A DNA stretch of 39,523 nt from Chloroflexota bacterium (GTDB lineage: Bacteria > Chloroflexota > Dehalococcoidia > SHYB01): assembly GCA_016875535.1 (NCBI GenBank), contig VGPF01000019.1:1-39523 (forward strand). Reading direction: 5' to 3'. A program made the translations under genes and the position numbers. This document shows positions 11,641 through 32,113 of the stretch, piece after piece. Positions within the stretch are counted from its first letter, which is position 1. The number at the start of each line of letters is the position of its first letter. The notes beneath the pieces are model-generated. The model had not been told where the DNA came from, searched no databases, and saw only the letters and a program-made list of their open reading frames with translations.

Positions 11641-12037
11641 ACGTGAAGCGGGCCTGTAAGCCGAGTTCTGTACCGTCGCCGCCGTTTACATCTCTCCCCG
11701 AAGGGAGGGACCTCATCCTGCGGCGTCGGGGGCTGTCATCTATCTAGCTCCACCGTCACCGGTGAAGTCGTGCGGCCAACCCGAGGACTCGCCGGGCTCG
11801 TGCGTCCTCCTATTTGGCCTTGCTCCGGATGGGGCTTGCCTGCCGACCTGGTTGCCCAAACCGGCCGTGAGCTCTTACCTCACGTTTTCACCCTTGCCTC
11901 TCTTGCGAGATCGGCGGTGTGTCTCTGTGGCGCTTGCCGTACGGTTGCCCGTCCTGGGCGTTACCCAGCATCTGCCCGGGGGAGCTCGGACTTTCCTCCC
12001 CGACTTTCATCAGGGCGACAGCCTAGCCTGCTTGACG
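11641..12037 (-). ncRNA. rnpB: RNase P RNA component (bacterial type A-like)
   Basis: The catalytic RNA of RNase P, which trims 5' leaders from tRNA precursors. On the - strand the 5' conserved core GGGGAGGAAAGTCCGAGCTC is followed by GGGTAACGCCCAGGACGGG and GCCACAGAGACA. The 3' conserved core ACAGAACTCGGCTTACAGG closes helix P4, and GGGTGAAAACGTGAGGTAAGAG supplies the P10-P11 region. The ends AAGCAGGCT (about 12034) and AGGCCCGCTT (about 11647) can pair as P1. The length, about 397 bases, is normal. The ends are estimated from P1 and the promoter, within about 10 bases. A long open frame on the + strand crosses this RNA and is not a gene. Confidence 0.95.
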
Positions 12038-12044
12038 TAACGCT

Positions 12045-12053
12045 AGTATACCA
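12045..12053 (-). promoter_or_regulatory. Extended -10 promoter element of rnpB
   Basis: On the - strand TGGTATACT is an extended -10 (TGnTATAAT type) about 8 bases before the predicted 5' end of rnpB. No good -35 is seen, which is usual for extended -10 promoters. Confidence 0.65.
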
Positions 12054-12067
12054 CATCCGTCTCGCAC

Positions 12068-12102
12068 TTGACCCGCTTCCTGGGGCAATTATGATTGCCC
12101 CA
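12068..12102 (+). promoter_or_regulatory. Promoter of the thiolase-like gene with dyad centred on its -10
   Basis: TTGACC (12068-12073), a 16-base spacer and TATGAT (12090-12095) form a good sigma70-type promoter. A perfect 9-bp inverted repeat, TGGGGCAAT (12081-12089) and ATTGCCCCA (12094-12102), separated by TATG, sits directly over the -10. This looks like an operator where a bound dimer would block RNA polymerase. With no T-run it is not a convincing terminator. Confidence 0.6.
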
Positions 12103-12129
12103 GCCATTATTCGCCTGCCGGAGCCGCCA

Positions 12130-13290
12130 ATGGACGACCTGCGCCACTTCCGAGATAAAGCCGCCATCGTGGGCATAGGCGAGACGCAGTTCTCCAAAAG
12201 CTCGGGGCGCACTGAGTGGTCGCTTGCGACGGAGGCTGCGGCGAAGGCCTGCGCCGATGCCGGGCTGGACCCCTCCGAGATAGACGGCATCATCCGGTGC
12301 AGTTATGACGCCGTCCTTCAGCACCAGCTCGTGCGGTCGCTGGGCATCAAGTCGCTCAGCTACCACGGAGAGGTGGGCTATGGCGGCGGCTCGCCGTGCG
12401 CGATCACGACGCAGGCGGCCATGGTGGTGGCCTCAGGGATGGCGAAGTACGTCCTCTGCTACCGCTCGGTGAACCTGGGCTCGGGACAGCGCTACGGCGT
12501 CTCCCGGGCGGGTGAGTACGTGGCTGGGGAGACGGCCTTCGCGACGCCCTTTGGGCACCTGGCCCCGGCGCAGTGGATCGCGATGATCGCCCTTCGGCAT
12601 ATGCACGAGTACGGGACCACCAGCCGCCAGCTTGGGGCCATCGCCGTCTCCCAGCGCGCCAACGCCAACCGCAACCCCAACGCCACGATGAAGGGGCCGT
12701 TGAGCCTCGAGGACCACCAGGCTTCGCGCTACATCGCCTGGCCGCTGCACCTCTTCGACTGCTGCCTCAACAGCGATGGCGCCGGGGCATACATCGTGAC
12801 GACGACGGAGCGGGCGCGGGCGCTGAAGCAGACGCCTGCGCGCATCATGGGGATGGGCATGGGCATGGCGTGGAACCAGGAATCGGTGCGGAACTATAAC
12901 CGGTCCTTGCTGACGCAGATACCGGAGCAGCAGGAGACGGCCAAGCGCGTCTTTGGGATGGCGGGCGTGAAACCCGCTGACATGGATGTGGCGCAGATCT
13001 ACGATCACTTTACGCCGGGCGTGCTGATGGCTCTGGAGAACTGGGGCTTCTGCAAGATCGGCGAGGGCGGGCCCTTTGTGGAGAGCGGCGCGATCGGCTG
13101 GCCCGATGGGAAGCTGCCGCTGAACACCCACGGCGGGAATCTCTCCGAGGCCTATATCCACGGCATCACCCACATCATCGAAGGGGTGAAGCAGCTGCGC
13201 GGCACGTCCACCTCTCAGGTGAAGAAGGTTGAGCTTAGCTTTGTCGCCAGCGCGGCATACGTGCCGACCGCGGCGCTGATACTGCACTAA
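12130..13290 (+). CDS. Thiolase-like / lipid-transfer-type acyl-CoA protein
   Basis: A 386-residue protein of the thiolase superfamily, close to the SCP2/lipid-transfer 'acetyl-CoA acetyltransferase' group. The N-terminal strand AAIVGIGETQFSK, the central GYGGGSPCAITTQAAMVVASG and the C-terminal LNTHGGNLSEAYIHG (thiolase GG loop) are visible. The Asn-x-x-Cys nucleophile context of true thiolases is not obvious, so it may be a condensing or retro-aldol enzyme or a binding partner. The frame is open far upstream across rnpB; ATG 12130 is preferred because GGAG lies eight bases before it and the predicted transcription start is near 12102. The two-domain EthD-like gene follows after 13 bases. 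Confidence 0.82.
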   Translation: MDDLRHFRDKAAIVGIGETQFSKSSGRTEWSLATEAAAKACADAGLDPSEIDGIIRCSYDAVLQHQLVRSLGIKSLSYHGEVGYGGGSPCAITTQAAMVVASGMAKYVLCYRSVNLGSGQRYGVSRAGEYVAGETAFATPFGHLAPAQWIAMIALRHMHEYGTTSRQLGAIAVSQRANANRNPNATMKGPLSLEDHQASRYIAWPLHLFDCCLNSDGAGAYIVTTTERARALKQTPARIMGMGMGMAWNQESVRNYNRSLLTQIPEQQETAKRVFGMAGVKPADMDVAQIYDHFTPGVLMALENWGFCKIGEGGPFVESGAIGWPDGKLPLNTHGGNLSEAYIHGITHIIEGVKQLRGTSTSQVKKVELSFVASAAYVPTAALILH

Positions 13291-21030: not shown

Positions 21031-21537
21031 ATGACGCAAGAGAAAGTCATCCCGATTTCCGATGAGCTGAAGGCATTCATCGGCAGAGAGTGCAACCGCA
21101 AAGTCTCGGCGCCCGTCTCGCTATCGGACATCCGCAAATGGGCCATCGCCGCGTACTGGCCGGAGACGCCGCCCCGCCTCTTTTGGGACGAGGAATATGC
21201 GAAGAAGACGCGCTTCGGAGGCATCGTCGCGCCGGAGGACTTCAACCCCTTCAGCTGGCCGATAGACCGCAGCACCTACAACATGGGCGATGAGCCCACC
21301 CACGCGCCCACCAAGCGCATGGGCATCGGCCTTGGGATGCTGAACGGCGGCGGGGGCAACGAGTTCCTGAGCCGCATCCGCCCGGGCGATGTCATCACCA
21401 GCGTCACCAAGTTCGACGATATCTTCTGCCGCCAGGGCTCCAAGTGGCCCATGCTCTTTTTTGTCCGCAAGACCACCTGGACCAACCAGAAGGGCGAAGT
21501 GATCAAGTACAACACCCACGTGGCGATCAAGCACTAG
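21031..21537 (+). CDS. FAS1-like / MaoC-N dehydratase, paralogue 1
   Basis: A 168-residue hotdog-fold protein of the MaoC N-terminal (FAS1-like dehydratase) family. The hallmark IRKWAIAAYWPETPPRLFWD followed by TRFGGIVAPEDFNPFSWP is present (residues about 30-75). A second conserved stretch, LNGGGGNEFLSRIRPGDVITSVTK, lies near 108-131, and YNTHVAIKH ends it. In enoyl-CoA hydratase 2 enzymes this half generally binds the acyl tail while a MaoC partner carries the catalytic Asp-His pair. It is the first of three close paralogues in tandem, all upstream of one MaoC gene. Confidence 0.85.
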   Translation: MTQEKVIPISDELKAFIGRECNRKVSAPVSLSDIRKWAIAAYWPETPPRLFWDEEYAKKTRFGGIVAPEDFNPFSWPIDRSTYNMGDEPTHAPTKRMGIGLGMLNGGGGNEFLSRIRPGDVITSVTKFDDIFCRQGSKWPMLFFVRKTTWTNQKGEVIKYNTHVAIKH

Positions 21538-21550
21538 GCCGCCGCCAGCT

Positions 21551-22069
21551 ATGACCCTGCAGCAAGAGATCCGAGTGAGCGATGAGCTGAAGACCTGGCT
21601 CGGCAAGGAAGCGGCGCGCCACACATCGCCCCCGGTGAGCGAAGCGGATATTCGGAAGTGCGCCATCGCCGTCTACTGGCCGGAAATGCCGCCGAGACTT
21701 TACTGGGACGCCGATTATGCCGAAAAGACCCGCTATGGCGGCATCGTCGCGCCGGAAGTCTTCAACCCCTTCGCCTGGAGCATCGGGATCGTCTCCGGGG
21801 CCTTCCTCCCGGATCCCATCTCCCCTATCCTCCAGCGGGCAGGCAAGGGCCTGAACTGGCTCAACGGCGGCAACAGGGATGAGTTCCACGCCCCCATGCG
21901 CCCCGGCGATGTCATCACCAGCGTCACCTCCCTAGACGATGTGCACACCCGCCAGGGAGGGCGCTTCCCTATGCTCTTTTTCACCAAGAAGTATGTGTGG
22001 ACGAACCACAGGGGCGAGCTTGTGAAGGTCTCACGACAGACATCCATCGGAGTTCTAGGAACTCCGTAG
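21551..22069 (+). CDS. FAS1-like / MaoC-N dehydratase, paralogue 2
   Basis: A 172-residue hotdog protein, homologous to its two neighbours and the most divergent of the three. IRKCAIAVYWPEMPPRLYWD and TRYGGIVAPEVFNPFAWS mark the same N-terminal region; the variable loop after it (IGIVSGAFLPDPISPILQRAGK) is unlike those of the others. MRPGDVITSVTSLDDVHTRQ is conserved. The C-terminus ends VSRQTSIGVLGTP instead of the usual N-T-x-I-x-Y/H. It starts 13 bases after paralogue 1 without a clear ribosome site. The different loop would sit near the acyl-binding tunnel, hinting at a different substrate tail (inference). Confidence 0.84.
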   Translation: MTLQQEIRVSDELKTWLGKEAARHTSPPVSEADIRKCAIAVYWPEMPPRLYWDADYAEKTRYGGIVAPEVFNPFAWSIGIVSGAFLPDPISPILQRAGKGLNWLNGGNRDEFHAPMRPGDVITSVTSLDDVHTRQGGRFPMLFFTKKYVWTNHRGELVKVSRQTSIGVLGTP

Positions 22070-22083
22070 CAGAAGGAGCATGA

Positions 22084-22587
22084 ATGACCCAATCCAAGGA
22101 TATTCCCATCACGCCCGGCCTCAAGGCTTACATCGGCAGGGAGATATCCCGATATCATTCCCAGCCGATCGCCCTTTCGGACATCCGCAAGTGGGCTATC
22201 GCTGTCTACTGGCCGGAGACGCCGCCGCGCCTCTATTGGGACGCCGACTACGCCAAGAAGACGCGCTTCGGCGGCGTCATCGCGCCGGAGGACTTCAATC
22301 CATTCGGTTGGCCTGTGGAAAAGCCCAAGCAGATGGACTTCAGCGATATCTATGCCGAGCTCAAAAAGATGGGCAACAGCCTGAACGTCCTGAACGGCGG
22401 CGGCGGCGCCCAGTTCCTGACCCCCATGCGCCCCGGCGATGTCATCACCTCAGTGACCATCATTGACGATATCTATTACCGCCAGGGAACTAAGTGGCCC
22501 ATGAGCTTCATCATCCGCAAGACCACTTGGACCAATCAGAAGGACGAGACCGTCCGAATCTCAACCAATACGCAGATCAACTACTAG
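22084..22587 (+). CDS. FAS1-like / MaoC-N dehydratase, paralogue 3
   Basis: A 167-residue hotdog protein close to paralogue 1 in the core: IRKWAIAVYWPETPPRLYWD, then TRFGGVIAPEDFNPFGWP and LNGGGGAQFLTPMRPGDVIT. The variable loop reads EKPKQMDFSDIYAELKKMG. An AGAAGGAG site precedes two overlapping ATGs; ATG 22084 is in frame. The stop is 10 bases before the MaoC gene, so this copy is the most likely direct partner of that protein. Confidence 0.85.
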   Translation: MTQSKDIPITPGLKAYIGREISRYHSQPIALSDIRKWAIAVYWPETPPRLYWDADYAKKTRFGGVIAPEDFNPFGWPVEKPKQMDFSDIYAELKKMGNSLNVLNGGGGAQFLTPMRPGDVITSVTIIDDIYYRQGTKWPMSFIIRKTTWTNQKDETVRISTNTQINY

Positions 22588-22597
22588 GAGGCATGTC

Positions 22598-23053
22598 ATG
22601 TCGCTCGATCACACGCTCTATGTTGAAGATGTTCAGGAAGGCCAGGAGATCCCCACCTTCCAGCGCCAGACGGACCTGATGCACTGGAACCGCTTCGCGG
22701 CGGTGAACGATGAGTTTGTCCAGATCCATATGGACGATGAGGCGGCCAAGAAGGCGGGCATGACGGGAGCCTTCGGCATGGGCAACCTGCGCTATGCCTA
22801 CATCCTCAATATGCTGCGCGCCTGGGCCGGCATCAACGGCGATATCCGCCGCCTGGACGTTCAGCACCGCGCCATCAGCTACAAGCACGATGTCCTTACC
22901 GCCAAGGGCAAGGTGACCAAGAAGTATGCCAAGGACGGCAAGCATTTTGTGGACTTGGACGTTGAAGTGACTAACCAGAAGAACGAAAAGACCACCCTCG
23001 GCACGGCCACCGTTGAGATGCCCTCAAAGATGGCCCACGCGAAGGCGAGGTAA
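22598..23053 (+). CDS. MaoC-family acyl dehydratase (hotdog)
   Basis: A 151-residue hotdog protein of the MaoC/enoyl-CoA hydratase 2 group, expected to be the catalytic half that pairs with the preceding paralogues. The hydratase motif region is NDEFVQIHMDDEAAKKAG (about residues 39-56), followed by GAFGMGNLRYAYI. In typical hydratases this reads D-x-N-P-x-H; here the spot five residues before the His is Glu instead of Asp and N-P is V-Q, so activity may be altered. AGGAGG precedes the ATG. The stop is only three bases from the DUF35 gene. This is similar to ChsH1/ChsH2-type assemblies of steroid degradation (family comparison). Confidence 0.85.
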   Translation: MSLDHTLYVEDVQEGQEIPTFQRQTDLMHWNRFAAVNDEFVQIHMDDEAAKKAGMTGAFGMGNLRYAYILNMLRAWAGINGDIRRLDVQHRAISYKHDVLTAKGKVTKKYAKDGKHFVDLDVEVTNQKNEKTTLGTATVEMPSKMAHAKAR

Positions 23054-23055
23054 CC

Positions 23056-23505
23056 ATGACCACCGCACCGCCGTATAAGGGAGCGTTGCCCCAGCCGACG
23101 CCGGAAAGCAAGCCCTATTGGGACGGTCTTAAGCAGCATAAGCTGATGCTGCCCAAGTGCAAGAAGTGCGGGCCCTTCTTCTACCCGCGCCCCTTCTGCC
23201 CTACCTGCTTCAGCTGGGACATCGAATGGGCGCAGATGAGCGGCAAGGGGAAGATTTACACCTTTGTCATCAACTTCCGGCCGCCTCCCGCCTTGGGCGA
23301 TAAGCCCCTCATCCTGGCGGTTGTGGAGCTGGCGGAGGGGCCGCGGATGATGACCAATATCGTGGGCATTGACCCGGACCCGGCAAAGCTCTGGTGCGAG
23401 ATGCCGGTGGAAGTCACCTACCATGATGTGACGCCGGAGTTCACCTTCCCCAAGTTCAAGCCCAGCAACCCCAGCCAGCCCCGCCCCATCCCCCTCTACA
23501 ACTAG
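23056..23505 (+). CDS. DUF35 Zn-ribbon / OB-fold acyl-CoA-associated protein
   Basis: A 149-residue protein with a rubredoxin-like zinc ribbon formed by Cys35, Cys38, Cys48 and Cys51 (CKKC...CPTC) and a C-terminal OB-fold (GKIYTFVINFRPPP to YHDVTPEFTFPKF). Proteins of this family partner thiolase-like enzymes; in steroid side-chain degradation a DUF35 domain activates the Ltp2 retro-aldolase, and in archaea a DUF35 protein bridges thiolase and HMG-CoA synthase. Here it lies immediately before a thiolase-like gene (7-base gap), as expected for such a partner. Confidence 0.92.
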   Translation: MTTAPPYKGALPQPTPESKPYWDGLKQHKLMLPKCKKCGPFFYPRPFCPTCFSWDIEWAQMSGKGKIYTFVINFRPPPALGDKPLILAVVELAEGPRMMTNIVGIDPDPAKLWCEMPVEVTYHDVTPEFTFPKFKPSNPSQPRPIPLYN

Positions 23506-23512
23506 GAGCTCC

Positions 23513-24670
23513 ATGGTACCCAGAGACTTACGCGGCAAAGTAGCCATCGTCGGCGTCTCAGAGGCCGATAAGATCGGCGTCCGCCCGGACGCCTCTGTCC
23601 TCCGGCTCCACGCCGAGGCGGCCAAGAACGCCCTGGCCGATGCCGGGCTGACCATCAAGGACGTTGATGGGCTCTTCACCGCCGGCATCTATAGCAACCT
23701 CCTGGGCGAATATCTGGGCATCACCGCACGCTACACGGACGGCACCATGGTGGGCGGCTGCTCCTTCATCCTCTTTGTTGAGCATGCGATGCTGGCGCTG
23801 GCGGCGGGCGTCATCAACGTGGCCCTCATCACCCACGGGGAGAGCGGCAGATCGCGCGTGGGCGCGCCTCCCTGGCCCGGCGGGGCGATGCAGCCCACTG
23901 GCCAGTACGAGAACATCTGGGGCATCACTGGCGCGGCCTCCATGTTCACCCACCCTGCCACGCGCCACATGCACAAGTACGGCACCAAGCTGGAACACTT
24001 CGCCGAAGTCTCCGTCGCCACGCGCAAGTGGGCGGCGATGCACCCCATGGCGCTGATGAAGGACCCCATCACGATCCAGGACGTCCTGAACTCGCGATGG
24101 GTCTGCTGGCCCCACACGCTGCTGATGTGCTGTCTGGTCACGGATGCCGGCGGCGCGCTGGTGCTTACTCGCGCGGACAGGGCGAAATCGCTCAAGAAGC
24201 CGCCCGTCTATGTGCTGGGCACCGGCGAGGCGACGCAACATAACATGATCAGCCAGATGAAGGACATGACCTGGCCTGAGACTTTCAAGGTCTCCGGAGA
24301 TGCAGCCTTCAACATGGCCGGCGTGGAGCGCAAAGAGATCCAAGTGGCGGAATTGTATGACGCCTTCTCCTTCACGCCCATGGCGGCGCTGGAGGCCCTG
24401 GGCTTCTGCAAACCCGGCGAAAGCGGCCCCTTCGTCTCCGGCCAGCGCACTGCCCCCGGCGGCGCCTTCCCCATGAACACCAACGGCGGCGGCCTCTCCT
24501 ACACCCATAGCGGCATGTACGGCATGTTCACCGTCATCGAGCTGGTGCGCCAGCTGCGCGGCGAGTGCGGCCAGCGCCAGGTGAAGGGCGCCAAGATCGG
24601 CATCGCCCACGGGCCGGGCGGCATGTTCTCCGCGGCGGGAACGCTCATCGCGGGCAGCGTGGTTCCATAG
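23513..24670 (+). CDS. Lipid-transfer-type thiolase / retro-aldolase (Ltp2-like)
   Basis: A 385-residue thiolase-fold protein of the SCP2/lipid-transfer group. KVAIVGVSEADK opens the fold, MVGGCSFILFVEHAMLALAAG (split) holds Cys83 at about the place of the thiolase nucleophile, and MNTNGGGLSYTHSGMYGMF is the C-terminal glycine loop, with a Tyr and His typical of Ltp2-like enzymes. It could cleave a beta-ketoacyl-CoA with CoA or perform CoA-ester retro-aldol cleavage; the sequence alone does not decide. AGGAG precedes the ATG. It closes the operon that starts with the three dehydratase paralogues. Confidence 0.85.
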   Translation: MVPRDLRGKVAIVGVSEADKIGVRPDASVLRLHAEAAKNALADAGLTIKDVDGLFTAGIYSNLLGEYLGITARYTDGTMVGGCSFILFVEHAMLALAAGVINVALITHGESGRSRVGAPPWPGGAMQPTGQYENIWGITGAASMFTHPATRHMHKYGTKLEHFAEVSVATRKWAAMHPMALMKDPITIQDVLNSRWVCWPHTLLMCCLVTDAGGALVLTRADRAKSLKKPPVYVLGTGEATQHNMISQMKDMTWPETFKVSGDAAFNMAGVERKEIQVAELYDAFSFTPMAALEALGFCKPGESGPFVSGQRTAPGGAFPMNTNGGGLSYTHSGMYGMFTVIELVRQLRGECGQRQVKGAKIGIAHGPGGMFSAAGTLIAGSVVP

Positions 24671-24734: not shown

Positions 24735-24764
24735 TGCGAAGACTTTTTGCCTAGGAGTGCGCCC

Positions 24765-25889
24765 ATGAAATTCGGCCTCTTCTACGAGATATGCGTCCCC
24801 AAACCCTGGACCCCAGGCAAAGAGGCGCGGATGATCCGCGAGGTCATCGAGCAGATCGTCGTCGCTGAGAAGTATGGATTTGAGTACGTCTGGTTCACCG
24901 AGCACCACTTCTTGGAGGAGTTCTCTCACTGCTCCGCTCCTGAAATTCTCTTGGGTGCGCTGAGCCAGGTGACCAAAAAGATTCGCCTCGGCCACGGCGT
25001 CGTCCTCACACCTCCCAAGTACAACCACCCGGTGCGCGTCGCCGAGCGCATCGCCATGCTGGACATCATAAGCAATGGCCGCGTCGAGCTCGGCACTGGC
25101 CGCTCCGTCACGCCAAGGGAGCTTGAGGGCTTTGATATCAACGCAGCCGAAAGCCGCGATATGTGGATGGAGGGCACGCAGTTGGTGGCGAGGCTCCTCT
25201 CGGAAGAGAAGGTGAGCTATGAGGGGAAGTATGTGCGCATGCCGGAGCGGACAGTACTCCCGCGCTGCGTTCAGAAGCCCCACCCGCCTATGTGGCTCGC
25301 CGGCACCTCGCCCGATAGCGCCAAGCGCGCCGCCGAAAGCGGTCTGGGAGTGCTCTTCTTCAGCACCGGCCTCACGCCGGAGATGCTGAAGGACACCGTC
25401 AAGATATATCGGGAGACCATCAAGAGCGCCAAGCCCATCGCAGGCAACGTGAATAACCAGCTGGCTGGCTTCTGCACGGGACTCTGCGGCAAAGACGATG
25501 CGGAGGCAAGAAGGACAGGCTCCCGCGCGGCCTGGTGGTACAACCTGATGGGAGCTGAGTACTCGTCCTGGCCCAAAGGCGTGGAGCCGCCCAAGACCTA
25601 TGAATACACCAAGGAGCGCATGGCGGGTGCTGCTGACAAGCTGCGCGCCACTGGCCCCGAGGGCATGTTGAAGGACGATGTCATCATGGTCGGCGACCCG
25701 GATCGGTGCGCAGCCTACGTGAAGCGCTTCCAGGATGTCGGCGTAGACCAGCTCATCATCCACATGCAGGCCGGCGGCCTTCCTCACAAGCGGATGTTGG
25801 AGTCCATCACCCAGTTTGGCAAGTACGTCATTCCCCGCTTTAAGAAGGGCAAGGCCAAGCGCGCCGGGAAGGCGAAGAGGCGCCGTTAG
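24765..25889 (+). CDS. LLM-class flavin-dependent oxidoreductase, pair A copy 1
   Basis: A 374-residue TIM-barrel protein of the bacterial luciferase/alkanesulfonate monooxygenase superfamily, which uses reduced FMN (or F420) to oxygenate or reduce substrates. Visible hallmarks are MKFGLFYEICVPKPW at the start, TEHHF (about 50), LGHGVVLTPPKYNHPVRVAERIA (split, about 79-101), NGRVELGTGRS and QKPHPPMWLAG. The C-terminus GVDQLIIHMQAGGLPH is also typical, then a Lys/Arg-rich tail (KKGKAKRAGKAKRRR). ATG 24765 is chosen over an upstream TTG because AGGAG lies at the right distance. The substrate is unknown. Confidence 0.92.
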   Translation: MKFGLFYEICVPKPWTPGKEARMIREVIEQIVVAEKYGFEYVWFTEHHFLEEFSHCSAPEILLGALSQVTKKIRLGHGVVLTPPKYNHPVRVAERIAMLDIISNGRVELGTGRSVTPRELEGFDINAAESRDMWMEGTQLVARLLSEEKVSYEGKYVRMPERTVLPRCVQKPHPPMWLAGTSPDSAKRAAESGLGVLFFSTGLTPEMLKDTVKIYRETIKSAKPIAGNVNNQLAGFCTGLCGKDDAEARRTGSRAAWWYNLMGAEYSSWPKGVEPPKTYEYTKERMAGAADKLRATGPEGMLKDDVIMVGDPDRCAAYVKRFQDVGVDQLIIHMQAGGLPHKRMLESITQFGKYVIPRFKKGKAKRAGKAKRRR

Positions 25890-25987
25890 CCTACGTGCGA
25901 TTCACCTGAATTCAGCCCGTGTCTACGCCCGGGGAAACCGGCGTGTGGTGGTTCGGTCATGCCCACTCTTTCGAGAACAATGCAGGC

Positions 25988-26035
25988 TTGAAGTGTTGCC
26001 CTATGTCCTGGATAATCTAGTGGTCGTCCACGACC
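25988..26035 (+). promoter_or_regulatory. Promoter with dyad at +1, before second LLM gene
   Basis: TTGAAG (25988-25993), 17 bases and GATAAT (26011-26016) form a promoter. A perfect 6-bp dyad GGTCGT-CC-ACGACC (26022-26035) covers the expected start point. GGGAGG follows before the GTG start. The rest of the 165-base gap is empty. Confidence 0.5.
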
Positions 26036-26054
26036 TGTATACCGGGAGGGTTTA

Positions 26055-27161
26055 GTGAAATTCGGACTCTTCTACGAAATCTGCGTCCCCAAGCCTTGGA
26101 CACCTGAGAAAGAGGCCACGATCGTTCGGAACGTCGTGGAGCAGGTGAGGCATGCCGAAGCCCACGGCTTTGACTACATCTGGCTCACCGAACACCACTT
26201 CCTCCAAGAGTTCGCCCATTGCTCCGCCCCCGAAGTCCTCCTCGGCGCGCTGAGCCAGGTGACCACCCGCATGCGCCTGGGCCACGGCGTCGTTTTGACG
26301 CCGCCCAAGTACAACCACCCGGCGCGCGTGGCGGAGCGCATCGCCATGCTCGATATCCTCAGCAACGGGCGCGTGGAGCTTGGCACTGGGCGTTCCGTCT
26401 CTCCCACAGAGCTTGAGGGCTTTGAGATTAACGCCGAAGAGAGCCGCGACATGTGGTTGGAAGGCACGCAGGCAGTGGTCAAGCTCCTCACGCAAGAGGA
26501 GGTGGGGTTCAAGGGCAAATACGTGAACATCCCCCCAAGAACAGTCGTCCCTCGCTGCATCCAGAAGCCGCACCCGCCCATGTGGCTGGCCGGCACCTCG
26601 CCGGACAGCGCCAGGCGGGCGGCGGAAGCCGGCCTAGGCATCCTCTTCTTCGCTTCCGGTGTCGCTCCCGAGCAGCTGGACGATAAAGTGAACCTCTACC
26701 GCAAGCTCGTGAAGAATGCCACCCCCGTTGCAGGCTTTGTGAACAACCAGCTTGCAGGCTTCACTACCGGCCTCTGCGGCGAAGACGATGCAGAGACGAA
26801 AAAGATCGGCAGCGAAGCCGCCCACTGGTACGCCTTGCGCGGCATGCGGTACACCCGGTGGCCCAAGGATCAACCCCCTCCCCGCACGTACGAATACACG
26901 CTGCAGGGCATGTGGGAGGGCGAAAAGCATCTGCTTGCGGGCGGCCCGCAATCGCTCATTGATTCCGGCGGCATCATGGTGGGAGACCCTGCATCATGCA
27001 CCAAGATCGTCCAGCGCTTCCAGGATGTGGGCGTGGATCAGCTCATCATCCACATGCAGGCGGGCGGCATCCCTCACAAGAAGATCATGGACTCCATCCG
27101 CATCTTTGGGAAGAACGTCATCCCGAAGTTCCAGAAAACGGCCGCCGGGGCGAAGAAGTAG
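26055..27161 (+). CDS. LLM-class flavin-dependent oxidoreductase, pair A copy 2
   Basis: A 368-residue luciferase-like TIM-barrel protein, clearly a tandem duplicate of the previous gene: KFGLFYEICVPKPWTP, LTEHHFLQEFAHCSAPEVLLG, LGHGVVLTPPKYNHPARVAERIA (split) and NGRVELGTGRS are nearly the same. It differs most in the middle loop and in the C-terminal tail. The GTG start has a GGGAGG site four bases away. It has its own promoter, so the two copies may be expressed under different conditions. Confidence 0.92.
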   Translation: MKFGLFYEICVPKPWTPEKEATIVRNVVEQVRHAEAHGFDYIWLTEHHFLQEFAHCSAPEVLLGALSQVTTRMRLGHGVVLTPPKYNHPARVAERIAMLDILSNGRVELGTGRSVSPTELEGFEINAEESRDMWLEGTQAVVKLLTQEEVGFKGKYVNIPPRTVVPRCIQKPHPPMWLAGTSPDSARRAAEAGLGILFFASGVAPEQLDDKVNLYRKLVKNATPVAGFVNNQLAGFTTGLCGEDDAETKKIGSEAAHWYALRGMRYTRWPKDQPPPRTYEYTLQGMWEGEKHLLAGGPQSLIDSGGIMVGDPASCTKIVQRFQDVGVDQLIIHMQAGGIPHKKIMDSIRIFGKNVIPKFQKTAAGAKK

Positions 27162-27212: not shown

Positions 27213-28133
27213 ATGGCGCTGCATCCGCAGGTCAAGGCCTACCTGGAGCGAGTCTCCGGCACCCGCCCGGATGGGGCTACCATGACCCCCGCGCAAGCTC
27301 GCGCGTATAGTGCTGCAGTGCAGCGGGGAAAAGGTCCGGAGGTCACGAAGACCGAGGACCGGACGATCCCCGTTCAAGGCGGCACGATCCCTGTCCGCAT
27401 CTACTTGCCCAAGGGCGTCGGGCCGCTCCCTGCGCTCGTCTGGCTTCACGGCGGCGGCTGGGTCGGCGGCGATATAGATCTGGCCGATGGGGCCTCTCGC
27501 CACATCGCCAATTGGGCCTCCTGCGTCGTCGTGAGCGTCGGCTACCGGCTCGCTCCCGAGTTCAAGTTCCCTGTCCCTGCGGAAGATTGCTACGCCGCCG
27601 CCAGATGGACTTTTGACAATTCCGCATCGCTCAACGCCGATCCTAAGCGGATCGCCATCGGCGGCTCCAGCGCCGGAGGCAACCTGGCGGCCGCCGTCGC
27701 GCTCATGGCCCGTGACCGCAACGGCCCGCCGCTGATCTATCAGGCCCTCGTCTACCCTGTGATCGAGCGCAACTTTGACACAAAGTCCTATCGCCGGAAC
27801 GGCGAGGGCCTCTTTCTCACTAGGGCGATGATGCAGTTCTACTGGGAACAGTACCTGCGTAGCGTAGCCGATGCGGAGCATTCCTACGCCGCGCCCATCA
27901 AGGCGAAGAGTCTGAAGGGCCTTCCGCCTGCCCTTGTGCAGACGGCGGAATACGACCCGCTGCGCGATGAAGGCGAATCCTACGCGGCGGCCCTGAAGAA
28001 GGCGGGCGTGCGGACGAAGCTCACCCGGTACAAAGGGATGATCCACGGCTTCGTTAGCATGTGGTCGGAGATAGACGCCGGGCGCGATGCCTTGGCGGAA
28101 GTGGCGCGGGAGTTGAAGAAAAGCTTCCGCTAG
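27213..28133 (+). CDS. Alpha/beta hydrolase, HSL-type esterase/lipase
   Basis: A 306-residue carboxylesterase of the hormone-sensitive-lipase family. The oxyanion-hole motif HGGG is at 79-82 and the nucleophile elbow reads G-S-S-A-G-G (151-156, Ser153), with Ser in place of the usual Asp of GDSAGG. The acid is likely in TAEYDPLRDEG and the base in GMIHGF. No signal peptide is seen, so it acts inside the cell on ester or lactone substrates. A lactone or ester made by a flavin monooxygenase next to it would be a natural substrate (inference). Its TAG stop overlaps the stop of the opposite SDR gene in a CTAG. Confidence 0.9.
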   Translation: MALHPQVKAYLERVSGTRPDGATMTPAQARAYSAAVQRGKGPEVTKTEDRTIPVQGGTIPVRIYLPKGVGPLPALVWLHGGGWVGGDIDLADGASRHIANWASCVVVSVGYRLAPEFKFPVPAEDCYAAARWTFDNSASLNADPKRIAIGGSSAGGNLAAAVALMARDRNGPPLIYQALVYPVIERNFDTKSYRRNGEGLFLTRAMMQFYWEQYLRSVADAEHSYAAPIKAKSLKGLPPALVQTAEYDPLRDEGESYAAALKKAGVRTKLTRYKGMIHGFVSMWSEIDAGRDALAEVARELKKSFR

Positions 28134-28924
28134 GCGGGCAGATAGCTCCCGCCGTTCACGTGCAGCACCATGCCGGTGACGCGGTCGCTATAGGGCCCCA
28201 CCAGATAGAGCAGCGCCCCCGCGATCTCGTCCGGCTTCACCATGCGGTAGGGGCGGATCATCTGGCCTTCGTTGTCAGCCGCCGTTTGCTCGGCCTCCTT
28301 ATTCGGGGGAGGCCACACGGCGCTTGGGTAGACAAGGCCCAGGCCGCTATCGCTCACCAGCCCCGGCGCGATACAGTTCACGGTGATGCCGTACTCGCCC
28401 AACTCTCGAGCCACGCTTCGCGAAAAGCCGATGATGCCTGCCTTTGCGGTGGCGTAATCGGTCAGCGTCTTGATCTTGGAGCTGTAGGCCGCGCGCGATG
28501 AGGTGTTGACGATGCGTCCCCATTTCTCCTTCTTCATGTGCGGGATCACGGCCTTGGTGCAGAGAAACGTGCCGCGCAGGTGGACGTTCATCGCCCTATC
28601 CCAGAGCTCGAGGGGCATCTCCTCAACCGTCTTGCCTGACGTGGTGGCCCCGGCATGGTTGGAGAGGATGCTCACCTTGCCGAACTGCTTGAGGGTGCGT
28701 TCCACCATGCGCTCCACATCGGCGGGCTTGGAGACATCCGTGGGAACGCCGATGGCCTTGCCGCCGCCATCGCGTATCCTCTTCGCCACCGCCTCGCCGC
28801 GGCCTTCATCGTAATCGGCGACGACGAGGGATGCCCCCTCCTTCGCCAGGGCATAGGAGAAGGCGCTGCCCATACCTGGGCCGCCGCCTGCAGTGACGAT
28901 CGCGACTCGATCCTTGAGGAACAT
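28130..28924 (-). CDS. Short-chain dehydrogenase/reductase 1
   Basis: A 264-residue SDR oxidoreductase using NAD(P)(H). The cofactor motif is TAGGGPGMGSA, a variant of TGxxxGxG. NHAG replaces the usual NNAG. NTSSRAAYSSKIKTLTDYATAKAG (split) holds Ser, Tyr and Lys of the active site, with an insert-like longer spacing. VNCIAPGLV and VTGMVLHVNGGSYLPA end it. The frame is open well upstream, but ATG 28924 has AGGAG and the right N-terminus. It has a strong promoter. It is convergent with the esterase gene. Confidence 0.92.
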   Translation of the reverse strand: MFLKDRVAIVTAGGGPGMGSAFSYALAKEGASLVVADYDEGRGEAVAKRIRDGGGKAIGVPTDVSKPADVERMVERTLKQFGKVSILSNHAGATTSGKTVEEMPLELWDRAMNVHLRGTFLCTKAVIPHMKKEKWGRIVNTSSRAAYSSKIKTLTDYATAKAGIIGFSRSVARELGEYGITVNCIAPGLVSDSGLGLVYPSAVWPPPNKEAEQTAADNEGQMIRPYRMVKPDEIAGALLYLVGPYSDRVTGMVLHVNGGSYLPA

Positions 28925-28946
28925 CGAGTACTCCTGGTAGGTTGGG

Positions 28947-28975
28947 ATTATAGAGTTGCTGGGGCGGCGAGTCAA
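28947..28975 (-). promoter_or_regulatory. Strong sigma70-type promoter of SDR 1
   Basis: On the - strand TTGACT (28975-28970), 17 bases and TATAAT (28952-28947), the best match to consensus in the window. It directs transcription into the SDR gene starting at 28924. Confidence 0.75.
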
Positions 28976-28987
28976 AGGAGACGACAA

Positions 28988-29016
28988 TTGTGATTTTGCC
29001 CTGTTCCTGCTGTAAT
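28988..29016 (+). promoter_or_regulatory. Candidate divergent promoter of SDR 2
   Basis: TTGTGA (28988-28993), 17 bases and TGTAAT (29011-29016). It stands back to back with the promoter of SDR 1, about 12 bases away. An AAGGGGG site precedes the ATG at 29045. Confidence 0.45.
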
Positions 29017-29044
29017 AGCGACACTTCCGCGAAGGGGGTCTGCG

Positions 29045-29794
29045 ATGCAGTTGAACGGCAAGAATGTGATCGTCACGGGCGCGGCGGCGGGCATCGGCAA
29101 AGCCACAGCCATCGCCTGTGCCAAGGCGGGCGCGAACGTGGCCCTTGTGGATATAGACGAGGCTGGGGCGAACAAGACGGCCAAAGAGTTCCCCCGACAG
29201 GGCAGGAAGTCCCTGGTCATCAAGACGGACATCGCGAACGTCCAGCAGACCCGCGCGATGGTGGCCCAGGTAAAGCGCGAATTCGGCTCCATTGACGCCC
29301 TGGCCAATGTGGCCGCCATCTTTCCCCGCGCCAAGATACTGGAGGTCACGGAGAAGCTGTGGGATGACATCCTCTCTGTGGACCTGCGTGGCCTCTTCTT
29401 CTGCTGTCAGGCGGCCATGCACGTCATGGTGCAGCAAAAGAGTGGCGTCATTGTGAACGTCGCCTCCGGCGCGGCCTTTCGCCCCATAGAGGGCCACGGC
29501 GTCTATTCCGCCGCCAAGGGCGGCGTGGTGGCCCTGAGCCGCGTGCTGGCCCTGGAGGGCATCAAGCACGGCGTCCGCACCAACGTCGTCGCCCCTGGGC
29601 ATACCGATACCGAGCGTAACAAGGCCATTGTCACGCCTGCCCGGCGCGCCGGCGATTATGCCACCCTAGTCGGCGGCCGCTACATCGAACCGGCGGAGGT
29701 CGCCAGTGCCATCGTCTTCCTCTGCTCGGATGCCGCCTCCGGCATCAACGGCGCCATCCTCAACGTGTGCCGCGGCAGCTATATGATTGGCTGA
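29045..29794 (+). CDS. Short-chain dehydrogenase/reductase 2
   Basis: A 249-residue classical SDR. TGAAAGIGKA (residues 11-20) is the cofactor loop; an Asp in LVDID (about 37-39) favours NAD(H). NVAA replaces NNAG. VNVASGAAF supplies the catalytic Ser, and VYSAAKGG the Tyr and Lys; NVVAPGHTDT follows. It is divergent to SDR 1 and about 75 bases upstream of the second LLM pair. It probably oxidises an alcohol or ketone intermediate of the same pathway. Confidence 0.92.
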   Translation: MQLNGKNVIVTGAAAGIGKATAIACAKAGANVALVDIDEAGANKTAKEFPRQGRKSLVIKTDIANVQQTRAMVAQVKREFGSIDALANVAAIFPRAKILEVTEKLWDDILSVDLRGLFFCCQAAMHVMVQQKSGVIVNVASGAAFRPIEGHGVYSAAKGGVVALSRVLALEGIKHGVRTNVVAPGHTDTERNKAIVTPARRAGDYATLVGGRYIEPAEVASAIVFLCSDAASGINGAILNVCRGSYMIG

Positions 29795-29870: not shown

Positions 29871-30998
29871 ATGAAATTCGGCCTGCTCTTTGAGCTTAAC
29901 GTCCCCAAGCCCTGGGGCGACCGCACCGAGTACGATACCTTCCACCAGGCCGCCGACCAGACGGTGCTGGCCGAACAGCAAGGCTTCGAATATGTCTGGG
30001 CAGTGGAGCACCACTTCCTGCCCGAGTTTGCCCACTCCGGCGCGCCCGAAGTCTGGCTCGGCTATTTGGCCAGCCGCACCAGCACCATTCGCCTTGGCCA
30101 TGGCGTCGTCCTTTTGGAGGGGAAGATCAACCACCCCATCCGCGTCGCCGAGCGCATCGCCACACTGGACATCATGTCCAACGGGCGTGTCGAGTTCGGC
30201 ACCGGGCGGAGCGCCCACCCCTGGCAGATCGAGCCCTTCGGCTGTGAGCTGGCGGAGACGCGGGACGAGTGGGCGGAGGCCATAGATATCATCCCTAAGA
30301 TGTGGTCCACGGACTGGTTCAGCCACAAGGGCAAGTTCTGGGATATCCCGGAGCGCAATATCCTGCCCAAGCCCATCCAGAAGCCGCATCCGCCCCTTTG
30401 GGTGGCCTGCGCCCAGCCGGACACCTTTGAGATGGCTGGCAGAAAGGGCGTCGGCGCGCTGTGTTTCACATTGGCCCAGCCGGGCCAGATGAAGGAGCGC
30501 ATAGACCGCTACCGCACCGCCATCGCCACCGCGCCTGAGCAGGCAGGCCTCTTCAAAAACAACCAGGTAGGCGCCTTCACCGTGGTCTATTGCGACGATG
30601 ACAACCAGCGGGCGCGCGACTTGGGCGGCCCGAACGCTCTCTGGTACTACGCCACCCTTCGCAACATCTACGATCCGGTCTGGATGCAGCGCAACCTGGA
30701 AGACGTACCGCCCAGCTACCGATGGCATGCCCAGCTCGTCCGGTCGGACGACCGCGTGGGCAACAAGGGATGGGACTACAACCAGCTCATAGACAACGGC
30801 TCCATGTGCGTCGGCGACCCTGACCACTGCATCCGCACCATCGAGAAATACGAGGCGGCCGGCGCCGACCAGCTTCTCTGCTTCATGCAGGTTGGGCGCA
30901 TCCCCCATGAAAAGGTGATGAACTCCATCATGCTCTTTGGCAAGTACGTCATCCCCTACTTCGCAAAGAAGGCGAGAGGAAAGGCGACGCTGCTGTGA
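29871..30998 (+). CDS. LLM-class flavin-dependent oxidoreductase, pair B copy 1
   Basis: A 375-residue luciferase-like TIM-barrel flavoprotein. MKFGLLFELNVPKPWGD opens it; VEHHFLPEFAHSGAPEVWLGY, LGHGVVLLEGKINHPIRVAERIA (split), NGRVEFGTGRSAHPWQ and QKPHPPLWVACAQPD follow; GADQLLCFMQVGRIPHEKV closes it. Pair B has an extra motif, DWFSHKGKFWDIPERNILPKP, which pair A carries in a different form. Its stop overlaps the GTG start of the next gene by four bases, so the two are made together and might form a heteromer. Confidence 0.92.
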   Translation: MKFGLLFELNVPKPWGDRTEYDTFHQAADQTVLAEQQGFEYVWAVEHHFLPEFAHSGAPEVWLGYLASRTSTIRLGHGVVLLEGKINHPIRVAERIATLDIMSNGRVEFGTGRSAHPWQIEPFGCELAETRDEWAEAIDIIPKMWSTDWFSHKGKFWDIPERNILPKPIQKPHPPLWVACAQPDTFEMAGRKGVGALCFTLAQPGQMKERIDRYRTAIATAPEQAGLFKNNQVGAFTVVYCDDDNQRARDLGGPNALWYYATLRNIYDPVWMQRNLEDVPPSYRWHAQLVRSDDRVGNKGWDYNQLIDNGSMCVGDPDHCIRTIEKYEAAGADQLLCFMQVGRIPHEKVMNSIMLFGKYVIPYFAKKARGKATLL

Positions 30999-32113
30999 AG
31001 TTCGGCCTGATCTTTGAGCTGCAGGTCCCCAAGCCCTGGAACCCGCGCAGCGAGTACGATATCTTCCACCAGGCCGCCGACCAGGTGGTCTTTGCCGAAC
31101 AGAACGGCTTCGAGTATGCCTGGGTGGTTGAGCATCACTTCCTCACCGAGTTCGCCCACTCCTGCGGCCCGGAAGTCTGGCTCGGCTATCTCGCCTCGCG
31201 GACCAGCGCCATCCGCCTGGGCCACGGCGTGGTCCTCATGGAAGGCAAGGTCAATCACCCTATCCGCGTGGCCGAGCGCCTTGCCACCCTGGACATCATG
31301 TCCAACGGCAGGGCGGACCTCGGCACGGGGCGCTCATCCAACCCGTGGCAGCTTGAGCCCTTCGGCGTGCGCCTTGAAGATACCCGCGATGAATGGGAAG
31401 AGGCCATCGAAATCATCCCCAAGATGTGGATGAGCGATTGGTTCAGCCACAAGGGCAAGTTCTGGGATATCCCCGAGCGCAACATCCTGCCGAAGCCCAT
31501 CCGGAAGCCCCACCCTCCGCTCTGGATGGCCTGCGCTCAGCCGGACTCCTTCACCATCGCCGGACGGCACGGCATCGGAGCCCTCTGCTTCGCCATCGCG
31601 CCGCCGGGCTACCTGAAAGAGCGCATCGCCGACTATCGCAAGGCCGTCACCCACCCTGCCAAGCAGGCTGGCGCTTACAAGCATGAGCAGGTCGGCGCCT
31701 TTGCCATGACCTATTGCGACGACACCGACCGGAAGGCCCGTGAGATCGGCGGCCCGAACGCCTTGTGGTACTTTGCTACCAACAAGAAGCTCTACGACCC
31801 CAGCTGGCAGCGGATCGAAGAGAGAGACGTGCCGCCCAGCTACCGCTACCACAAGCTCAACGTCACCCCTGCCGATTCAGCCCTACGATCCAGGCAGGCC
31901 GATTACAACGAGCAGATAGACTCCGGCGCCTATTGCATCGGCGACCCAGACGCCTGCATCCGCACCATCGAGATGTACCGGGATGCGGGCGCAGACCAGA
32001 TCCTCTGTATGATGCAGGTGGGACGCATCCCCCATGAGCGACTCATGAACTCCATCAAGCTCTTTGGGAAGTACGTCATCCCCCACTTCAAGAACAGCGC
32101 CAAGGGTGCCTGA
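30995..32113 (+). CDS. LLM-class flavin-dependent oxidoreductase, pair B copy 2
   Basis: A 372-residue paralogue of the previous gene. KFGLIFELQVPKPWNP, VEHHFLTEFAHSCGPEVWLG, LGHGVVLMEGKVNHPIRVAERLA (split), NGRADLGTGRSSNPWQ and the DWFSHKGKFWDIPERNILPKP loop are all shared. The GTG start lies within the stop of copy 1 (GTGA). The end overlaps the SRAP gene start (TGATG), so all three genes are one transcript. Confidence 0.92.
   Translation: MKFGLIFELQVPKPWNPRSEYDIFHQAADQVVFAEQNGFEYAWVVEHHFLTEFAHSCGPEVWLGYLASRTSAIRLGHGVVLMEGKVNHPIRVAERLATLDIMSNGRADLGTGRSSNPWQLEPFGVRLEDTRDEWEEAIEIIPKMWMSDWFSHKGKFWDIPERNILPKPIRKPHPPLWMACAQPDSFTIAGRHGIGALCFAIAPPGYLKERIADYRKAVTHPAKQAGAYKHEQVGAFAMTYCDDTDRKAREIGGPNALWYFATNKKLYDPSWQRIEERDVPPSYRYHKLNVTPADSALRSRQADYNEQIDSGAYCIGDPDACIRTIEMYRDAGADQILCMMQVGRIPHERLMNSIKLFGKYVIPHFKNSAKGA

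Follow-up and report, generated by a model that had tools for sequence, protein, structure and literature searches.

A Chloroflexota operon with three non-catalytic hot-dog halves, one MaoC protein and a DUF35/thiolase-fold pair: a tentative combinatorial hydratase-aldolase

The DNA analyzed here (the window) is a stretch of 39,523 nucleotides from a Chloroflexota bacterium. A set of six genes at positions 21031-24670 encodes three hot-dog halves of the PF13452 (HadA/ChsH2) type, designated N1, N2 and N3, followed by a MaoC protein, a DUF35 protein and a thiolase-fold protein. This order, with three MaoC-N halves ahead of MaoC, DUF35 and thiolase, had been proposed in a first-pass annotation and is borne out by Pfam and NCBIfam matches. 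The features are:

21031..21537, + strand: N1, non-catalytic hot-dog half (PF13452, E 1.5e-20), with Phe51 at the catalytic His position
21259..21321, + strand: N1 residues 77-97, the block most divergent among N1-N3 (equivalents: N2 21779-21841, N3 22312-22371)
21551..22069, + strand: N2, non-catalytic half (PF13452, E 3.4e-19), with Tyr51 at the catalytic His position
22084..22587, + strand: N3, non-catalytic half adjoining MaoC (PF13452, E 1.6e-22), with Tyr51 at the catalytic His position
22598..23053, + strand: MaoC catalytic half (PF01575), with His44 (22727-22729) kept and Glu39 (22712-22714) at the catalytic Asp position
23056..23505, + strand: DUF35 protein (zf-ChsH2 and OB_ChsH2_C), a four-Cys zinc ribbon (Cys35, 38, 48, 51) plus an OB fold
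23513..24670, + strand: thiolase-fold protein, a putative retro-aldolase (PF22691, 2e-60), with Gly81, Tyr282 (in YDAF), Ala284 and His332

The gaps between consecutive genes, from N1 to the thiolase-fold gene, are 13, 14, 10, 2 and 7 bp. Because none exceeds 14 bp, the six genes very probably form one operon. The gene hisG lies upstream on the opposite strand, and a luciferase-like monooxygenase gene lies 76 bp 3' of the operon. The window has four luciferase-like monooxygenase genes (24747-27161 and 29871-32113), two of them directly 3' of the operon; for the SAR202 clade of the Chloroflexota, large expansions of flavin monooxygenase genes have been described in the literature. An SDR gene at 28130-29602 encodes about 225 residues N-terminal to the SDR domain that have no Pfam match. 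No steroid-ring genes were recognized among the annotated genes of the window, and nothing else was found that would point to steroid specificity.

The three N proteins combine a PF13452 match with the loss of the catalytic His, which is replaced by Phe in N1 and by Tyr in N2 and N3, as it is by Tyr in ChsH2. They can thus be regarded as non-catalytic halves, as had been claimed. The additional claim that they differ in one loop is overstated: N1 and N2 are 53% identical, N1 and N3 62%, N2 and N3 51%, and of the 172 alignment columns 73 are invariant and 99 vary. The longest wholly divergent block comprises N1 residues 77-97, with 0 of 20 columns invariant (permutation p 0.0008). It follows the segment APEDFNPFSW, a presumed short central helix, and it aligns with the pocket loop of ChsH2; the placement is by sequence, and the AlphaFold model of N1 (nine-sequence alignment, pLDDT 55), in which residues 35-102 are poor or unresolved, is unreliable at this point. 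In ChsH2 the pocket owes its shape to the loop that comes behind its short central helix (PMC11321319).

The variability of this block was compared across 23 members of the subfamily, with the pairs binned by identity outside the block. Where the identity outside is 55-65%, the median inside is 20%; where it is 65-75%, the median rises to 43% (range 14-80%). N1-N2 and N2-N3, both with 61% identity outside, reach 14% and 10% inside, respectively; N1-N3 has 69% outside and 25% inside. These values are at the low side, yet within the family range. Judged from the alignment, the block is therefore a hypervariable segment of the whole family and not a special mark of N1-N3, and for this reason it provides no special evidence for a swapping of specificities. 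With respect to the near-invariant positions of the family, N1 and N3 each keep 18 of 19 and N2, the most divergent of the three, keeps 17 of 19. On account of this retention none of the halves looks like a decaying copy.

The match of the MaoC protein to PF01575 (E 2e-4) is below the curated cut-off; homology is firm by profile search. The His of the Asp-His dyad is kept as His44, and the Asp position is occupied by Glu39. Glu is found at this position in 34 of 48 aligned proteins, Asp in the other 14. The presence of a His in MaoC and its absence from the halves agree with the earlier reading of a heteromeric hydratase, in which inert halves accompany a catalytic subunit. In the loci of the class that were retrieved with the MaoC query, N adjoins MaoC in nearly every case, as a rule with N directly ahead of MaoC and in a 1:1 ratio. 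The genome of the window also has eight loci with PF13452 and MaoC matches in frame in open frames of equal length; these are apparent fusions, judged from the match coordinates rather than from translations. For a similar open reading frame (L051) the N-MaoC fusion was confirmed by Pfam; an AlphaFold model of this natural fusion, made without an alignment, had a pLDDT of 33. In a mirror-tree analysis of 38 1:1 pairs, some of them from paralogous loci within one genome, the distances of N and MaoC correlated with r 0.89, while the permuted maximum was 0.25. Adjacency, fusions and mirror-tree together make it highly probable that N and MaoC pair with each other. The statement that there is only one MaoC holds within the operon but not genome-wide: other MaoC proteins exist that either adjoin a half of their own or are fused to one. 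Some of them are stand-alone proteins of the same subfamily, for example one on contig C47 with 57% identity.

The thiolase-fold protein matches NCBIfam PRK06158 with 433 bits (cut-off 421) and the solved protein 4u4e, deposited as 'Thiolase', with an E of 2e-135. Its active site was aligned with those of TcLtp2, CtSal, 4u4e and homologues. The nucleophilic Cys of thiolases is Gly81, which is not expected of a catalytic thiolase, and Tyr282 retains the base Tyr of the aldolases. Ala284 aligns with a His in Ltp2 and a Cys in Sal, and His332 with Tyr344 of Ltp2 and Gln352 of Sal; the protein thus lacks the second catalytic Tyr of Ltp2 as well as the catalytic Cys of Sal. The label 'Ltp2-like enzyme' survives as far as a DUF35/thiolase-fold aldolase is meant, but the active-site residues match neither Ltp2 nor Sal. 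Gly, Tyr and His are common to all 40 aligned family members, a set that includes the window protein and leaves out Ltp2, Sal, the window's second thiolase-fold protein and one canonical thiolase. Positions 83 and 284 covary in these members (Ser/Ser 21, Cys/Ala 14, other pairs 5), and the window protein belongs to the Cys83/Ala284 subtype, different from the Ser/Ser type of the 4u4e/PRK06158 family. In 29 of 30 loci a DUF35 gene adjoins the thiolase gene, and 134 of 245 genomes of the class have a match to the family with an E no higher than 1e-60. The residues suggest that the family may possibly represent a third active-site class with a Tyr base, a His and Ala or Ser between them, and we propose His332 as the general acid. 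In CtSal, replacement of the Cys in YDCY by Ala or Ser abolished activity. The window family has precisely these residues there, which would call for a different chemistry. The second thiolase-fold protein of the window (11770-13290) carries the Ltp2 signature (YDHF, LSEAY) and is closer to Ltp2 in its active-site residues than the protein at 23513-24670.

Two related gene sets give some context. In one locus of the class (L101) two acyl-CoA dehydrogenase genes with a CoA-transferase gene between them are followed in a row by N, MaoC, thiolase-like and DUF35 genes, and no hydroxyacyl-CoA dehydrogenase is among the genes of this row. A cluster on the Sphingomonas plasmid pISP0 contains genes for ferredoxin, alcohol dehydrogenase, P450, N, MaoC, CoA-transferase, aldehyde dehydrogenase, SDR, DUF35 and thiolase. 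Its MaoC is 50% identical to that of the window and has the same Glu; the exchange of the catalytic Asp for Glu extends over a whole subfamily of MaoC hydratases, this sphingomonad plasmid included. The P450 of the sphingomonad cluster gave no pointer to the substrate.

The phylogenetic analysis indicated that N1-N3 and the single half of L085, a locus from a genome of the same family, form one clade (support 99/97). In this tree the L085 half is closest to N1 (98/90), then to N3 and then to N2. The L085 operon has the same gene order as the window, with a single N half. Either the triplication would predate the split of the two genera, L085 having lost two copies, or N2 and N3 would evolve faster. 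Synonymous divergence is similar within and between genomes and thereby does not date the triplication. By rough estimates the dN/dS between the N copies is 0.37-0.58; equally rough estimates between the window and L085 genomes are 0.26 for MaoC and 0.30 for the thiolase. Halves from contigs named as Dehalococcoidia or Chloroflexota fall among those of the same class in the tree, and PurD of four such genomes shares 47-53% identity with PurD of the window; an origin from the Dehalococcoidia is therefore likely. At E values up to 1e-25 three halves with one MaoC were found only in the window among 393 genomes of the class, and at the same threshold a sample of 400 genomes from the phylum yielded nothing beyond the window's own genome. 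The parts of the operon are ordinary; the 3:1 ratio is unusual.

What we read from the genes themselves is which parts are present, where catalytic residues have been lost or kept, that the linkage of N with MaoC and of DUF35 with the thiolase is conserved, and that all three halves have stayed intact. On this basis we suggest two enzymes that act one after the other, an enoyl-CoA hydratase built as a heteromer and a thiolase-fold retro-aldolase that depends on DUF35. MaoC would provide the catalytic residues, His44 and presumably Glu39, while the inert half would pair with it and form the substrate pocket. The aldolase, made up of the DUF35 and thiolase-like proteins, would then cleave the resulting beta-hydroxyacyl-CoA. 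N1-N3 would most likely alternate as partners of the single MaoC, so that up to three hydratases, differing in their pockets, would share one aldolase, similar to HadB with HadA, HadC and HadD. We assign a probability of roughly 0.5 to this reading of a three-partner hydratase and a shared aldolase in sequence. For its central element, that the halves alternate on one MaoC and confer different specificities, the chances seem evenly balanced by analogy: the HadAB/HadBC precedent and the position of the variable block at the pocket loop speak for it, while the single half in L085 and the dN/dS of N, which exceeds that of MaoC and thiolase, speak against it. As substrate one can only guess at a bulky acyl-CoA, branched or alicyclic.

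The three halves could also be redundant, i.e. a partner duplicated in tandem and maintained through dosage or drift, of which N1 or N3 alone matters for function. This is a rather doubtful explanation, although tandem duplicates of N do occur elsewhere, in L090 (2:1, the two halves 89% identical), L117 (2:1) and L093 (G110 C96), the last with two halves and two MaoC proteins (2:2), an array that invites comparison with the 3:1 array. The grouping of N1 with the sole half of L085 and the deviation of N2 at two near-invariant positions also fit redundancy. However, N1-N3 are all intact and keep the family-invariant residues, and a synonymous divergence similar to the level between genera argues that they are old. 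Redundant gene copies of such age are usually lost. It is quite improbable that the halves assemble among themselves or with a MaoC encoded elsewhere in the genome, in which case a 3:1 ratio would not mean three alternatives. Such partners are available in the genome, as the MaoC on C47 demonstrates, but they adjoin their own half, and the distances of N and MaoC correlate even between paralogous loci; dimers of two N proteins, both devoid of the catalytic His, should be inert.

The function of the DUF35/thiolase-fold pair must be judged separately, since complexes of this kind include the acyltransferase PhlB-PhlC and the thiolase BbsA-BbsB, and position 284 holds a residue, Ala or Ser, that is inactivating in CtSal. 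An acyltransferase or a decarboxylase is nonetheless unlikely: the nucleophilic Cys is Gly in every aligned member, the aldolase base Tyr is invariant, and the L101 operon joins the thiolase-like gene to a hydratase without a hydroxyacyl-CoA dehydrogenase. From these residues an aldolase rather than a thiolase activity is likely. The most far-reaching version of the three-partner reading is a combinatorial hydratase-aldolase, in which exchangeable inert subunits set the substrate range and the shared aldolase belongs to the third active-site class, with Tyr as base and His as acid; we regard this as tentative and possible rather than probable.

If the halves do swap, an apparently degradative pathway would likewise use the principle established for mycobacterial HadB, which would offer a simple genetic route to accepting more substrates without any new catalytic subunit. 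The thiolase-like family is named acetyl-CoA acetyltransferase in NCBIfam even though the thiolase nucleophile is missing throughout the alignment; many names could need correcting, and the family could turn out to be a third route to C-C cleavage that depends on DUF35.

Compared with known systems, the array is a new combination of known kinds, namely the partner swapping of HadB, which is plausible for the window, and the hydratase-aldolase coupling of ChsH1-ChsH2-Ltp2. The first-pass annotation had emphasized the likeness to the latter. The heteromeric hydratase and the aldolase in this comparison stand, but in profile searches the Had proteins are closer than ChsH1-ChsH2: the halves match HadA (2.8e-11), HadC and HadD ahead of ChsH2 (4e-4), and for MaoC the match to HadB (2e-13) is far better than that to ChsH1 (3e-6). 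What is shared with ChsH1-ChsH2-Ltp2 is an inert half with a catalytic MaoC followed by a DUF35-dependent thiolase-fold aldolase, including the four-Cys zinc ribbon, the base Tyr and a Gly for the nucleophilic Cys. That system, which serves the removal of the C3 side chain of steroids, has one half and not three, a catalytic Asp where the window MaoC has Glu, and an aldolase with YDHF and Tyr344 instead of YDAF and His332. ChsH2 is furthermore a half fused to DUF35, whereas the window has separate genes; unfused parts can work, because the ChsH2 domains of C. testosteroni retained hydratase and aldolase activity when expressed separately (PMC12502768). Shy-Sal, which removes the C5 side chain of bile acids, likewise couples a MaoC hydratase to a DUF35-thiolase-fold aldolase. 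Shy, however, is a MaoC homodimer without an inert partner and the system has a Cys3His1 zinc site, while Sal has YDCY and Gln352. The Had proteins, the best solved relatives of the halves, resemble the window in that one catalytic MaoC subunit, HadB, is common to several PF13452-type partners that influence specificity; HadBC favours longer substrates than HadAB. They differ in acting on ACP-bound chains in the FAS-II synthesis of mycolic acids, without a DUF35/thiolase-fold aldolase, and HadD retains a putative dyad while the window halves have no catalytic His. The genes hadA and hadC flank hadB and hadD is located elsewhere, in contrast to the three tandem paralogues of the window. The PDB contains entries of HadB with each of HadA, HadC and HadD, which is a direct precedent for three partners per catalytic subunit.
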